The translations under genes and the position numbers were made by a program. From the IMG/VR virus record IMGVR_UViG_3300025632_000067, positions 1 through 25,290 of that record: a stretch of 25,290 nt of DNA, one strand, 5' to 3'. The stretch is from a virus. This document shows, one piece after another, positions 18,416-23,760 of the stretch. Each line of letters begins with the position of its first letter. Within the stretch, counting starts at the first letter, position 1. The notes under the pieces are model-generated. The model had not been told where the DNA came from, made no database searches, and was given only the letters and a program-made list of their open reading frames with translations.

Positions 18416-18604
18416 TTATTCTTTTATCTCTATGTAAATATCAATTAGTTCTAATGCTTTCTCAACACCTTCTGCTTCACACCATCTTTCTTTTTCTAAT
18501 AGATAAACCCAATATTCAACAATATCTTCTCTATCTTTTGAATTAAAATAACTATCTATACAGCTTTTATAAGCTATGTTTTGTAGTTCTTTACAAGTAT
18601 TCAT
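18416..18604 (-). CDS. Small acidic hypothetical protein, 62 aa
   Basis: Begins MNTCKELQNIAYKSCIDSYF; helical and acidic, ending ALELIDIYIEIKE. Its start overlaps the end of the exonuclease gene by 14 nt, indicating co-translation. It has three Cys (4, 15, 42). No function recognised. Confidence 0.55.
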   Translation of the reverse strand: MNTCKELQNIAYKSCIDSYFNSKDREDIVEYWVYLLEKERWCEAEGVEKALELIDIYIEIKE

Positions 18605-19328
18605 CTTTATATTTTAAATAATTATCAGTAGCTAATTGTAATTTATTATAACCGCTTTGTATAAATTCATCTGAGAAAGAATAAAATCCAATTTCTTTAG
18701 TTCTTTTATCCACTACAACATACTTAAATTCAAATGCGCCAAACAATTCTAAATACAATGCTGCTTGTACATCATAGTTCCAATACATTGCTGCTTCATC
18801 AAATCTATTAATATCACTTGTAGTTTTTAAATCAATAACAATCCCCGGTAATGATATATCCGCTTTACCTCTAAATGGCAAACCATTGTAATAACCAATC
18901 TCAGGTTTTTCAAAATGAGCAAACCTAACTAATTCTCTATATTCATCATTATCCAATACGGCATCAGCTATATCTTTACATCTATTTAATTCTGAACGTG
19001 TATATACTGTTTGAGGTAATTGTTCTTCGACTGCTAACTTATAAGCTTTACTACCTTTTGTGCTATCAATAATAGTAAGTTCATCAATACGATGTGGCTC
19101 AAGAGACAGTAAGTGTATTAACCTACCATCTCTCAAAGCTTGATGTTCTTTACCTTCTTGTTTATTCAACATATTATAATATGCCTCAGGACCTTCTAAT
19201 AAACTTTTACAAGTAGAACTTGATAAAGCATTCTTACCTAAATACCCATAATAAAAAGTATCATCCATCATTTGTTTTAGGATATCACTTTTCTCAAAAG
19301 TATCTCCATTCAATAGTTGAATATCCAT
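18591..19328 (-). CDS. PD-(D/E)XK exonuclease, RecE/exonuclease VIII-like
   Basis: A 245-residue protein. N-terminal half: LGKNALSSSTCKSLLEGPEAYYNM and ALRDGRLIHLLSLEPHRIDE, in which the G..IH segment is typical of this family. Catalytic core: FRGKADI (about 153-159), then IVIDLKTT with Asp and Lys of the PD-(D/E)XK site (about 164-171), then NYDVQAALYLELFG (Q..A.Y helix). It matches the putative exodeoxyribonuclease VIII group found in phages (DUF3799-like). It likely resects double-stranded DNA ends to feed single strands to the ERF annealing protein encoded at 23230-23760, with the SSB-like protein assisting. Confidence 0.8.
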   Translation of the reverse strand: MDIQLLNGDTFEKSDILKQMMDDTFYYGYLGKNALSSSTCKSLLEGPEAYYNMLNKQEGKEHQALRDGRLIHLLSLEPHRIDELTIIDSTKGSKAYKLAVEEQLPQTVYTRSELNRCKDIADAVLDNDEYRELVRFAHFEKPEIGYYNGLPFRGKADISLPGIVIDLKTTSDINRFDEAAMYWNYDVQAALYLELFGAFEFKYVVVDKRTKEIGFYSFSDEFIQSGYNKLQLATDNYLKYKDEYL

Positions 19329-19329
19329 C

Positions 19330-20097
19330 TTAGTTATTCTTCACATAAGTTCCATTAACCATCTTACCCGTTCTGTTCTTTATAACATCATAAGCAGATT
19401 GTATGCACTCTTCAATTGTCAACCCTTCTAAGTGAGCTAAGTTTGTTAATACAACAACCATATCCCCAATAGCATCTTCAATCTCAGGTTTGTCATTCTT
19501 TAAAATAGCTTTAGCTAATTCCCCTGACTCTTCCTGTAATTTAACATATTGTGTTTTTGTATCTCCTTTATCATATAAATCTCTCTGTTTAGCCCAATCT
19601 CTAATATTATTAAATACATTATCTTCTGTTTGAAAACTCTTATGTGCTTCTAAAAATGCTCCATTATAAATAAAAAAACCATATTTATCTCCATATTGAG
19701 AAGTCTTTAAATGTTGTTTAATCCATTCACAATGTTGTTCTGTTAAGTTTATAGCTTCACCCTCTATTTCTAAAAACATTATTTTGTTTAATAAAAAATC
19801 ATTTGTTACTTCTTCTTTACTTTTTATCTTAAAAGTTACTGTTGTGTTTGTAGTGTGTATCATTTCGTTTTTGTTTTTTAATTGTTTATTTTTAACTGTT
19901 AATTCTTCGTAAGTTTGTTTATCTACTTTGTATCCTAGTCTCTCTTGATAATATCTTTCAGCATTAGAAGCTTTTTTAATATCAGGTGACTCAAATAGTA
20001 TCTGGTAATCTTTATAACCTTGTTGTTCTTCTACTCTTTTTTTAAGGTTATTAGTACAACCTATTTTTTTTCCTTTGATGTAATATACGTAATACAT
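19330..20097 (-). CDS. GIY-YIG-like / MazG-like nucleotide pyrophosphohydrolase fusion
   Basis: A 255-residue protein in two parts. Residues 1-58 resemble a GIY-YIG nuclease core: YYVYYIKGKKIGCTNNLKKR with the VYYIK and KIG strands, Arg21 and an ASNAERYYQERLGY helix with Glu47. Residues about 95-252 are a MazG-like domain: VKLQEESGELAKAILK with Glu189, Glu190 and Glu193, and IEDAIGDMVVVLTNLAHLEG with Asp208 and Asp212, the metal-binding acidic set, then IQSAYDVIKNRTGKM. MazG domains hydrolyse (d)NTPs to NMP and pyrophosphate. The internal Met79 would start a stand-alone MazG protein. It follows the ThyA homologue by 9 nt, suggesting a shared nucleotide role. Confidence 0.75.
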   Translation of the reverse strand: MYYVYYIKGKKIGCTNNLKKRVEEQQGYKDYQILFESPDIKKASNAERYYQERLGYKVDKQTYEELTVKNKQLKNKNEMIHTTNTTVTFKIKSKEEVTNDFLLNKIMFLEIEGEAINLTEQHCEWIKQHLKTSQYGDKYGFFIYNGAFLEAHKSFQTEDNVFNNIRDWAKQRDLYDKGDTKTQYVKLQEESGELAKAILKNDKPEIEDAIGDMVVVLTNLAHLEGLTIEECIQSAYDVIKNRTGKMVNGTYVKNN

Positions 20098-20106
20098 AGT
20101 TTTTGT

Positions 20107-20877
20107 TTATATAGCTACAGGAGCTGTTATTAATTTATGAAATTTATAATTTGTTATTTTAAGTTCTTTGGCAATATAAGAATATTTTGGTAAACTATAT
20201 GTTTTAGTTTTTAAATAGTCTTTTACACTGTCTAATTGATTTTTATATACGTGTGCATCTACTATTTGCAAGTCTATCTTATTTGCTTTTAAATTGGCCT
20301 CGTCAGATACATACAATAATAGTTTTGAAAATAATGCAACATCATAAGGTATACCTAAAAATAAATCACCCGAACGTTGTACAGCAAACATATTCAATTT
20401 ATCACCCTGAACAAAGAATTGAAAATATAAATAACAAGGGGGTAAAGCCATATCCTCTAACTGTTGTGGATTCCATAAAGTTACAATATGTCTTCTTGAA
20501 TCAGGATTTGTTTTAAGACTCTCTAACAAGCTTTTAAGTTGGTCGATACCATTACTATTAAAGTTTCTTAATTGATAACCATAAACAGGCCCTAAATCAC
20601 CATTAGCATCTGCCCATTCATTCCATATCTTAACATTGTTATCTTTGAATCTTTGTATGTTTGTTTCACCATTAATAAACCAATCAAATTCTGTATTAAA
20701 TACTTTTTGATATATTTTACGACCGGTCATCATTGGAAAATTATTTTTTAAATTCCAAGATAATTGTTGATTAAATAAGGAGTATGAACCTACACTTGTT
20801 CTATCGTCTCTAAATTGTCCTTTAGTAATTGCTTTGTGCAATATTTTTTTATATTGTTTTTCTATTTTATTTTTCAT
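20107..20877 (-). CDS. Thymidylate synthase-family protein with Asp at the base-selecting site
   Basis: A 256-residue ThyA-fold enzyme. Visible landmarks: EFDWFINGETNIQRF with the family Glu, NVKIWNEWAD, GDLGPVYGYQLRNF, DSRRHIVTLWNP, catalytic Cys148 in LPPCYLYFQF, RSGDLFLGIPYDVALF, HVY at 209-211 and the C-terminal APVAI. In thymidylate synthases the G-[LIV]-P-[FY]-N-[IV]-A motif carries Asn (E. coli Asn177), which reads uracil; here that residue is Asp179. T4 dCMP hydroxymethylase also has Asp there, and Asn-to-Asp mutants of thymidylate synthase accept dCMP. So a dCMP hydroxymethylase or methylase is likelier than a dTMP synthase, although the PVAI tail is TS-like. Its start overlaps the upstream gene by 11 nt. 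Confidence 0.85.
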   Translation of the reverse strand: MKNKIEKQYKKILHKAITKGQFRDDRTSVGSYSLFNQQLSWNLKNNFPMMTGRKIYQKVFNTEFDWFINGETNIQRFKDNNVKIWNEWADANGDLGPVYGYQLRNFNSNGIDQLKSLLESLKTNPDSRRHIVTLWNPQQLEDMALPPCYLYFQFFVQGDKLNMFAVQRSGDLFLGIPYDVALFSKLLLYVSDEANLKANKIDLQIVDAHVYKNQLDSVKDYLKTKTYSLPKYSYIAKELKITNYKFHKLITAPVAI

Positions 20878-21133
20878 TTTCTAATACGTTGTTTAGTGAA
20901 CCAATGTAAGCCAATGCATCCAACAAGTTATCTTCTTTGTGTGCATTAGATTGTCGAGCTAATTTAAGAGCTATTAGAACATTGTAGGCATCTACTATAT
21001 TAATTTCTTTATTACTCATTAAAGAAGCTATATCAGCTGTTTTTTGCATACACTCTTGAAAGTCTCCATACATTCTTTCTTTTTCTTCTGAACGTTCATT
21101 TACAATTTCGTTTGCTTTTTTTAATATATTCAT
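20867..21133 (-). CDS. Small conserved phage protein (DUF6378-like)
   Basis: An 88-residue, mostly helical protein: MNILKKANEIVNERSEEKER then YGDFQECMQKTADIASLMSN and LIALKLARQSNAHKEDNLLD followed by ALAYIGSLNNVLENEK. This RSEEKERMYG...LKLAR...HKEDNLLDALAYIG pattern is a recurring phage family, usually next to nucleotide-metabolism genes; I associate it with DUF6378 but cannot verify this. Role unknown. It overlaps the ThyA-family gene by 11 nt, so the two are co-translated. Confidence 0.75.
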   Translation of the reverse strand: MNILKKANEIVNERSEEKERMYGDFQECMQKTADIASLMSNKEINIVDAYNVLIALKLARQSNAHKEDNLLDALAYIGSLNNVLENEK

Positions 21134-21175: not shown

Positions 21176-22045
21176 TTAAAATTCAAAATCATCTTTAATA
21201 AACTTTGGCAAACCGTTTTCTTCAAAGCCAAAACTAAATGTATCGAAGTTTCTGTTTCTACCTCTTTTACATTCAACTGTTACCCAACCTTGATTAGCAT
21301 TGTTTTTTTCTAACATAATTTGTGTTTCCGCCTTCTTCTCAAGCGATGACCCTAACACTCCAGTCGGTTTAGTTGAACCATAATTAGAATGTATTATTGT
21401 TGATATGTGGCATTGTAAATCATCTGTCCAACGCATTAATAATTCTTGCACTTCTGTTGATTGTTCCATTGAATTTACATCTGAAGTTAAATCTGCAATA
21501 CCATCAATAATTACCAAACCTATTTTTTCTCCTGCAAACTTTGTATATAAAATGTATTCTATAAAGTTCCTTCTTTGTTTGTAATCCATAGCACGTAATG
21601 CATAAAAGTGATAGTTTTCGTCTTGCATATAACCATTCATCACTAATGGTCGTCTTGCTACTTTACTTGCGTGAAACTTACCTTGTTCAGTATCAAAGTG
21701 TATTATCTTTCTACCTTGTCTATGCCCTTTTAATTTACCAGTGTAATCATTTTGACCACCTTGATAAGCAGATACTAATAAAGACATAAAAAATGATTTT
21801 CCAACTTTTGGATGAGCGTGTGTAAAACTAAAGTTACCATAAGTACCAATTGGAATTGGGTAAGTTCTTCTTGTACCATCAGTACCAACATCTATATATG
21901 TACCACAACTAATTGCGACAGGTGGATAAGCAATATCTTCCGCAACATCTAATTCAGCATCTTTTTCAAGCTCTTCCATCTGCTGAATAATCAACATTCT
22001 TTCTACTTCTTTTTCATCATCAGTTTTTGTTTTTTGTTTTTGCAT
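21176..22045 (-). CDS. RecA-fold AAA ATPase, putative replication helicase/recombinase
   Basis: A 289-residue protein. Residues 1-37 are charged and helical. The ATPase core has Walker A AHPKVGKSFF (Lys83, Ser84), a catalytic-type Glu120 in IIHFDTEQGK, Walker B IGLVIIDG (Asp181) and a sensor region ISTIIHSNYGSTKPTGVLGS (about 214-233), then TVECKRGRNR. The pattern matches the RepA/DnaB-like RecA-fold group (AAA_25) often annotated as phage helicase or DNA repair ATPase. No separate primase is visible in the window. It overlaps the GIY-YIG-like gene start region by 26 nt and works in the replication/recombination block. Confidence 0.75.
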   Translation of the reverse strand: MQKQKTKTDDEKEVERMLIIQQMEELEKDAELDVAEDIAYPPVAISCGTYIDVGTDGTRRTYPIPIGTYGNFSFTHAHPKVGKSFFMSLLVSAYQGGQNDYTGKLKGHRQGRKIIHFDTEQGKFHASKVARRPLVMNGYMQDENYHFYALRAMDYKQRRNFIEYILYTKFAGEKIGLVIIDGIADLTSDVNSMEQSTEVQELLMRWTDDLQCHISTIIHSNYGSTKPTGVLGSSLEKKAETQIMLEKNNANQGWVTVECKRGRNRNFDTFSFGFEENGLPKFIKDDFEF

Positions 22046-22451
22046 CTTGTTTATATTTTAAAATTGTTTTTTTATAGAACTTCCCTGCTATGTTATCATT
22101 TATGTATTTATCACTTTCTAAAACATTTTCAATAAATTGTAGTTTAGTCTCATAATATGACATCATCGTCCTGTTATAGCAAATATATAAAATTTCTCTA
22201 TAACATTCTTCTATTTTCCATTTTTTTGTTTCTTCATTACTACCTGTGTACTTTAACCAATTGCTTTCTACATAGTCAACACGTTTACGCTTGTATCCTT
22301 TTAGAGGCTTTCTTGTGCGCTTATTAACCAATATCTTCTTACCAATATAATGTTTGTCATTTAATGTGTTTGTAATGCGATATACGAAGCCTATTGCATC
22401 TTCAGATAATTGTTTTCTGTCTGTAATTTGTTTTCCTTTGTAGTGCCACAT
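22020..22451 (-). CDS. GIY-YIG-like endonuclease
   Basis: A 143-residue protein. GFVYRITNTLNDKHYIGKKI (about 21-40) carries both GIY and YIG strands; MMSYYETKLQFIENVLES (about 95-112) carries the family Glu, followed by NDNIAGKFYKKTI, typical of a T4-like phage family of small GIY-YIG proteins. A Lys/Arg-rich stretch (KRTRKPLKGYKRKRVDYVES) lies between. It may nick host or phage DNA; homing or recombination-linked roles are both possible. It is preceded by a terminator at 22462-22489, so expression depends on readthrough or on a weak promoter upstream. Confidence 0.7.
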   Translation of the reverse strand: MWHYKGKQITDRKQLSEDAIGFVYRITNTLNDKHYIGKKILVNKRTRKPLKGYKRKRVDYVESNWLKYTGSNEETKKWKIEECYREILYICYNRTMMSYYETKLQFIENVLESDKYINDNIAGKFYKKTILKYKQDAKTKNKN

Positions 22452-22461
22452 AAAGTAGAAT

Positions 22462-22489
22462 AAAAAAAGGGGTAGCCTAAACCACCCCT
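22462..22489 (-). terminator. Intrinsic terminator after SSB-like gene
   Basis: On the minus strand the stem AGGGGTGG / CTACCCCT (one G-U pair) with a 6-nt loop is followed by seven T residues, starting about 13 bp past the SSB-like stop codon and ending just before the GIY-YIG gene start. Confidence 0.85.
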
Positions 22490-22502
22490 ATTTAGTTAGT
22501 AA

Positions 22503-22877
22503 TTAAAATGGTAAATCCGATGTTACAACAGTTTCTTGTACTGCTTCTTGTTTGTTTTCGTTTCTTTGAACAAAACCTTGCAAGTCATCTGATGCATAAA
22601 ATATTTTACCATTGGCAACATACTTCTTTGGTTCTTTTGCATCTCTTTGTTCTTTAGATTGTGGTAATGTAAACGATACATTTTTACCATATCTGCCTTC
22701 TTCAAAAATTGAAAAGTTTAATGTTAGCTTTTTCATAGCTTCACCATTTTCATCTTTTTTTGGTACTAACTTTTTGTTAGCATCATACGTTAAAACGTGT
22801 TGAAAGTACTGATTTAACTTTTTAATTTCGTTGATTGATAATTCAACGTCTCCTAATAAATACGATTTGTTACTCAT
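22503..22877 (-). CDS. Single-stranded DNA-binding-like protein
   Basis: A 124-residue protein with a beta-rich body (KLTLNFSIFEEGRYGKNVSF, then KKYVANGKIFYASDDLQGFV) and a flexible polar tail ending VVTSDLPF. The acidic-hydrophobic DLPF tip resembles the C-terminus of bacterial SSB (DDIPF), which recruits partner proteins. No canonical OB-fold motif can be proven by eye. The genomic setting between ERF protein, exonuclease and ATPase supports a single-strand-binding role. Leader AACAATTAAATTTAAAATT before ATG. It is followed by a strong terminator, suiting a highly expressed early protein. Confidence 0.6.
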   Translation of the reverse strand: MSNKSYLLGDVELSINEIKKLNQYFQHVLTYDANKKLVPKKDENGEAMKKLTLNFSIFEEGRYGKNVSFTLPQSKEQRDAKEPKKYVANGKIFYASDDLQGFVQRNENKQEAVQETVVTSDLPF

Positions 22878-23229: not shown

Positions 23230-23760
23230 TTATTTAGTTAATAATTCTTTTACTTCTTTACTAATTTTATATTTAGCTTCTATATTGCTAATGTTACCTC
23301 CACCTTTTAAATATACTTGTGCTTTCTTAAATTCAGGTGTATCTTTATTTAACCACTTCTTTTCAATAACTGCTTTTGTGCTATGGTCATTTGTTGCATC
23401 TACATCTTTAGTATCATCAATTAAGAATAAACCATTTAAAGCATACTTTCTTGCATAGGATGAACTACTACCAAAACTTTGTGCAATGTCCATACCTTTA
23501 CGATTTACATCAATTCCTGCTTGTGCTTTAGTATGTACTTGGTTTTCTCCATCAGATATAATTGCTATTGCTTCAACATACATTATATCTCCTGCTTGTT
23601 TAATTTCATCTGATATTGTTAACGTGCAATTGTATTTACTTAATAGTGGTTTAACTGCTTCTAAAATATCCTCACAACTTCTGTAGTTGTACTTACCAAA
23701 GTTGTTACGTTGATTCTTTGGTGCTTTTAATTCTGCTTGAATTTTGTTTAATTTTTCCAT
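23230..23760 (-). CDS. ERF family single-strand annealing protein
   Basis: A 176-residue protein with the ERF core: MEKLNKIQAELKAPKNQRNN, FGKYNYRSCEDILEAVKPLL (about 21-40), SKYNCTLTISDEI, and the diagnostic QSFGSSSSYARKYALNGLF followed by IDDTKDVDA (about 94-122). These proteins anneal complementary strands during phage recombination and replication. The C-terminal 50 residues are a basic, less conserved linker and tail. Partners in this window are the PD-(D/E)XK exonuclease and the SSB-like protein, although they lie 1-4 kb apart. Confidence 0.9.
   Translation of the reverse strand: MEKLNKIQAELKAPKNQRNNFGKYNYRSCEDILEAVKPLLSKYNCTLTISDEIKQAGDIMYVEAIAIISDGENQVHTKAQAGIDVNRKGMDIAQSFGSSSSYARKYALNGLFLIDDTKDVDATNDHSTKAVIEKKWLNKDTPEFKKAQVYLKGGGNISNIEAKYKISKEVKELLTK

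Follow-up and report, generated by a model that had tools for sequence, protein, structure and literature searches.

Few phages (XP12 and T4) have been examined for pre-replicative replacement of cytosine. Cells infected with XP12 harbor a THF-dependent dCMP methyltransferase, and 5-methylcytosine (5mC) replaces cytosine in the DNA (PMC8543423, PMC7653180). AXL1 gp63 and PaMx28 gp52, both presumed deoxycytidylate methyltransferases, were used herein as stand-ins for XP12, whose own enzyme gene is deduced from relatives. The dCMP hydroxymethylase of T4 (gp42), which is devoid of a C-terminal tail, activates water via Asp145, three residues before the catalytic Cys, with the help of Ser94; in the thymidylate synthase ThyA, Trp83, Leu143 and the tail hold the site closed for methylation (PMC6400193). 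Within the thymidylate synthase (TS) family, positions 177 and 147 (E. coli numbering) show the strongest association with modified cytosine among viral contigs; Asp at the former marks modified viral contigs, a PRA-PH domain co-occurs with TS, and replacing the Asn by Asp redirects ThyA to dCMP, yielding 5-methyl-dCMP (5mdCMP) as the product (PMC8670742). Our literature search retrieved no paper in which flavobacterial phages were tied to both TS and modified cytosine.

The stretch of DNA studied here (the window) is 25,290 bases long and makes up an entire IMG/VR virus record. Its features of interest are the following:

18591 to 19328, minus strand: RecE/exonuclease VIII-like gene (DUF3799) bordering the module slot on the left.
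19330 to 20097, minus strand: gene for a 255-residue protein with a C-terminal MazG/PRA-PH NTP-pyrophosphatase domain (residues ~160-255), a proposed dCTPase on the basis of profile matches and linkage.
20107 to 20877, minus strand: gene for a ThyA-fold enzyme, a predicted dCMP 5-methylase (Asp179, Tyr149, Cys148, PVAI tail) from its open reading frame, Pfam match, alignment and structure model.
20341 to 20343, minus strand: GAT codon for Asp179, which sequence and alignment place at E. coli Asn177.
20431 to 20433, minus strand: TAT codon for Tyr149, which sequence and alignment place at E. coli His147.
20434 to 20436, minus strand: codon TGT of Cys148, equivalent to E. coli C146, read from the sequence.
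20867 to 21133, minus strand: gene for a DUF6378 protein of 88 residues, overlapping the start of the ThyA-like gene and a member of the module.
21176 to 22045, minus strand: AAA_25-like ATPase gene bordering the module slot on the right; its match fell just under the cut-off and that of a homologue above it.

The ThyA-like open reading frame is full-length, encodes 256 residues without internal stops, and its product matches the Pfam Thymidylat_synt profile at 4e-76 as well as PHROG 160. When a family profile was used to align the product with E. coli ThyA (1qqq), the motif around the catalytic cysteine (APCHAFFQ in E. coli, PPCYLYFQ in the window) and that around position 177 (LGLPFNIASY and LGIPYDVALF, respectively) aligned without a gap, such that Cys148, Tyr149 and Asp179 of the window enzyme correspond to C146, H147 and N177. 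The sequence-only reading had placed Asp179 at the Asn177 site, next to a catalytic Cys148 and a canonical PVAI C-terminus; all three assignments held, no other residue falling at the Asn177 site and the tail reading APVAI. Two further features, the change of His147 to Tyr149 in the active site and the adjacent MazG/PRA-PH gene, had escaped that reading. Superposition of an AlphaFold model of the enzyme (pLDDT 93.8) with E. coli ThyA spanned 251 residues and gave 1.2 A. The window enzyme thus resembles ThyA in its fold, catalytic Cys, folate-site Trp and C-terminal tail, but is missing the Asn177 and His147 pair of the dUMP-specific ThyA. Relatives were found on some two dozen other virus contigs, and every clade relative on other contigs, at identities of 53-55% to 73%, has kept both Asp and Tyr, which argues against chance or a sequencing error as the origin of the two residues.

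Across the family, positions 177 and 147 were found to change together. Asn177 and His147 were present in 80 of 80 bacterial ThyA sequences, a set fetched with canonical queries and hence biased toward canonical ThyA. The viral sequences, scored after leaving out two truncated ones, comprised 23 with Asn and His, one with Asn and Val, 22 with Asp and Tyr, 27 with Asp and Pro, and four with Asp and Thr. Asp177 was thus paired solely with Tyr, Pro or Thr in the alignment and Asn177 with His, save for the single Val; neither Asn with Tyr nor Asp with His occurred among the scored bacterial and viral sequences. The two positions may serve as a signature for sorting TS-family genes by substrate. 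It is against this background that an ordinary thymidylate synthase, tolerating Asp and supplying dTMP to the phage, appears improbable: although thymidylate synthases are the closest characterized relatives of the window enzyme by overall sequence, residues of this kind were found in none of the 80 bacterial and none of the 24 scored Asn-type phage enzymes, and Asp is fixed in the clade along with Tyr147. Separately, Microbacterium phage Huwbert (L031, 647-1498) carries two adjoining TS-family genes, one of them with Asn and His and the other scoring as Asp and Thr, albeit on a very long branch.

A tree built with both specificity columns masked placed the window enzyme in a clade of ten rows (bootstrap/SH-aLRT 99/98), to which the enzyme of a marine MedDCM phage attached with a support of 87/82. 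The remaining viral Asp-Tyr proteins group in a single clade with the window enzyme. Tree groups were named after inspection of the sequences, and several rows sit on long branches. The comparison with ThyA and T4 gp42 proposed in the sequence-only reading gave a separate clade, adjoining ordinary ThyA and sharing its Asp with T4, distinct from both the XP12/Pamexvirus type (Asp with Pro147, where the window has Tyr147) and the T4 type (Asp with Thr). Union of the window clade with the XP12 type was rejected (p-AU 0.008). A tree holding all Asp-type rows on one side, in contrast, was not (p-AU 0.163), and we therefore do not claim convergence, with Asp arising independently from one clade to the next. 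A first scan of a genome collection yielded no bacterial relative of the window clade.

Individual comparisons were in line with this placement. The XP12-type enzymes share with the window Asp177, within a GLPYDV motif, and an adjacent PRA-PH pyrophosphohydrolase gene, but are only ~28% identical to it, harbor Pro at 147 and have no PVAI tail; a dCMP deaminase gene, present nearby in XP12-type phages, is missing beside the window enzyme. T4 gp42 (~23% identity) has the TS fold, the Asp (T4 Asp179) and a catalytic Cys148 in common with the window enzyme, and differs from it in Asp145, Ser94, Val85, Thr at 147 and the absence of a C-terminal tail. The ThyA of phage MedDCM-OCT-S28-C10 (AP013540; 42% identity) also combines Asp177 with Tyr147 and has an NTP pyrophosphohydrolase gene nearby, together with genes for a dTMP kinase and a dCMP deaminase, but carries Tyr at position 83 and is devoid of the PVAI tail. 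Taken as a comparison of sequences, the locus is probably a new branch of the known XP12 strategy, and well supported as such.

The residues that distinguish methylation from hydroxymethylation point to the former. In a dCMP hydroxymethylase, water rather than hydride would add to the methylene intermediate, yielding 5-hydroxymethyl-dCMP as in T4; the window enzyme shares its Asp with T4 gp42, and among the Asp-type enzymes encoded by modified viral contigs, some are regarded as hydroxymethylases (PMC8670742). The T4 signature is nonetheless missing from the window enzyme, which has Leu145 in place of the acid three residues before the Cys, Pro97-Val98 where a Ser or Thr would stand two residues before the catalytic Tyr, and a PVAI tail instead of the short C-terminus of the T4 type. 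The residues that seal the ThyA site for hydride transfer are, on the other hand, retained (Trp80, Trp83, Leu143, corresponding to Leu145 of the window, and the C-terminal tail). Furthermore, none of eight records encoded a carbamoyltransferase (PF16861), and a PRA-PH neighbor was missing from both T4-type records. Hydroxymethylation is thus unlikely, and Leu145, Pro97-Val98, both Trp residues and the full tail predict 5-methyl-dCMP as the product. The tail is supporting rather than decisive evidence since the XP12-type enzymes are without it, indicating that methylation does not require it. Activity on ribonucleotides, as in the CMP hydroxymethylases MilA and BcmA, was also considered: the Asp is common to both of these enzymes, and the ribose preference of MilA is set by Lys133 and Ala176 (PMC5175136). 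At these two sites, however, the window enzyme has Arg and Ser, as do deoxyribonucleotide enzymes, making an enzyme of the MilA/BcmA kind very improbable. Dihydrofolate reductase, looked for as an indicator of methylation, was not found in the Asp-Tyr records and was patchy in those of the XP12 type, and is hence uninformative.

We thus consider it likely, from sequence comparison, that the window gene encodes a dCMP 5-methylase producing 5-methyl-dCMP. The earlier suggestion that the enzyme acts on dCMP, and may methylate rather than hydroxymethylate it, is strengthened in both parts by comparative evidence, namely the covariation of positions 177 and 147, the absence of the T4 signature, the preserved sealing residues and tail, and the linkage to MazG/PRA-PH.

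This linkage is tight. The MazG/PRA-PH gene is the next gene downstream of the ThyA-like gene, nine bases apart, and the EXXE and EXXD residues of its domain are invariant. All ten other Asp-Tyr records (11 of 11 including the window) and 13 of 13 Asp-Pro records had a MazG/PRA-PH match no more than ~1 kb from the TS gene; overall, adjacency was seen in 24 of 24 records of these two types vs one of 14 Asn-type phage records and neither of two of the T4 type (Fisher p 3e-9 for the linkage, a guide only as the rows are related). Gene order differs between subclades, reading DUF6378-TS-MazG in the window and MazG-DUF6378-Dam-TS in contig L003, indicating that the association of TS with MazG has outlived rearrangement. 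T4 gp56 is a dCTPase. By analogy, the MazG/PRA-PH protein plausibly hydrolyzes dCTP to dCMP, which would both supply the substrate and lower the competing dCTP; MazG enzymes can be broad in substrate, which weighs against a firm assignment as dCTPase. A MazG/PRA-PH neighbor may, as the distribution suggests, mark the methylating Asp-type enzymes. The N-terminus of the window protein resembles, by eye, a GIY-YIG nuclease domain, which the shorter L003 homologue is missing.

The third member of the module, DUF6378, is conserved beside the ThyA-like gene in several subclades and missing in one. Its predicted fold is a four-helix one, and Foldseek and VIA returned merely weak matches to the four-helix model; that it might be a second MazG-like enzyme was discarded, as profile comparison found no match.

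The closest cultured phage is Nonlabens phage P12024S, a 35.7 kb marine phage that infects a flavobacterium and has no annotated TS, MazG or DNA polymerase, whose terminase and a second virion-region protein are 62% and 35% identical to those of the window; the window phage is probably a marine flavobacterial phage as well. Two uncultured sisters, G041 and G043, are closer (terminase 92%) and share the gene order on both sides of the slot, with a RecE-like protein and an AAA protein 55% and 82% identical to their window counterparts. In both, a single open reading frame of 130 residues replaces MazG, TS and DUF6378. Since syntenic sisters are without all three genes, these are accessory and gained or lost as a unit, a status more in keeping with a role in modification than with supplying dTMP as a core function; that close sister phages do without the gene also speaks against an ordinary thymidylate synthase. 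The 130-residue frame lies between the RecE-like and AAA genes at 27756-28148 in G041, 23360-23752 in G043 and 22364-22756 in G045, where it adjoins a possible HNH endonuclease gene. Record G001 (L173, 10324-19953; L172, 568-15347) seems to carry virion structural genes in two sets that differ in type, and may be a chimeric assembly. Searches with the PADLOC models yielded no matches.

In the pathway that we propose for the predicted dCMP 5-methylase, the MazG/PRA-PH neighbor would hydrolyze dCTP to dCMP; the ThyA-fold enzyme would then take the one-carbon unit from methylene-tetrahydrofolate, attach it at C5 of dCMP and reduce it to a methyl group, 5-methyl-dCMP being the product expected from the residues and the clade. 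Kinases, probably those of the host, would convert this product to 5-methyl-dCTP, which a polymerase, again probably the host's, would insert in place of some or all of the cytosine in phage DNA; the likely benefit would be a shield from cytosine-sensitive nucleases of the host. Incorporation would rely on host enzymes because neither a dCMP kinase nor a DNA polymerase (PF00476 being the sole profile searched) was found in the window record or its relatives. More tentatively, and with rather less confidence than we place in the reaction itself, the Asp177-Tyr147 enzymes may form a separate class of TS-like dCMP methylases that corresponds in nature to the laboratory N177D mutant and moves, as a plug-in module together with a MazG dCTPase, among small polymerase-less phages, leaving it to the host machinery to build a 5mC genome. 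With the window clade, cytosine replacement would reach small uncultured phages whose hosts are probably marine flavobacteria; if so, the nucleotide pool, instead of DNA methyltransferases, could be the source of 5mC signals in marine viromes, and the methylase and MazG pair would represent a compact system for making 5mC-containing DNA.

Whether such DNA is spared by restriction bears on the anti-restriction trait suggested in the sequence-only reading. The window contains no CATG (~56 expected), no GATC (~47 expected) and two CTAG (~48 expected). CATG is likewise wholly absent, and GATC absent or rare, from the related contigs L172/L173, L178-L182, L187 and L189, with or without the module, and CTAG is nearly absent too from some related phages. 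Sister records in which the TS gene was not found avoid CATG and GATC equally, whereas G002, a carrier of the module, does not. Avoidance of these sites thus reflects the host or lineage rather than the enzyme, and was set aside as a sign of modification. GATC and CATG enzymes commonly have an adenine-acting cognate methylase. Restriction enzymes of this kind can cut 5mC DNA, as data from XP12 indicate (PMC7653180), and 5mC need not, therefore, protect GATC or CATG sites. An anti-restriction role is plausible but limited in reach, for with CATG and GATC fully avoided despite the putative modification, any modified cytosine that the phage may carry has left some restriction pressure in place. 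At the typical C5-methylase sites AGCT, GGCC and CCGG, avoidance was too variable or too sparse to be informative. Record G003, which encodes a Dam-type methyltransferase, keeps GATC (40 vs ~59 expected). The module-less P12024S (L184) does not strongly avoid CATG or GATC, has no GGCC and strongly avoids CCGG (two found, O/E 0.06).
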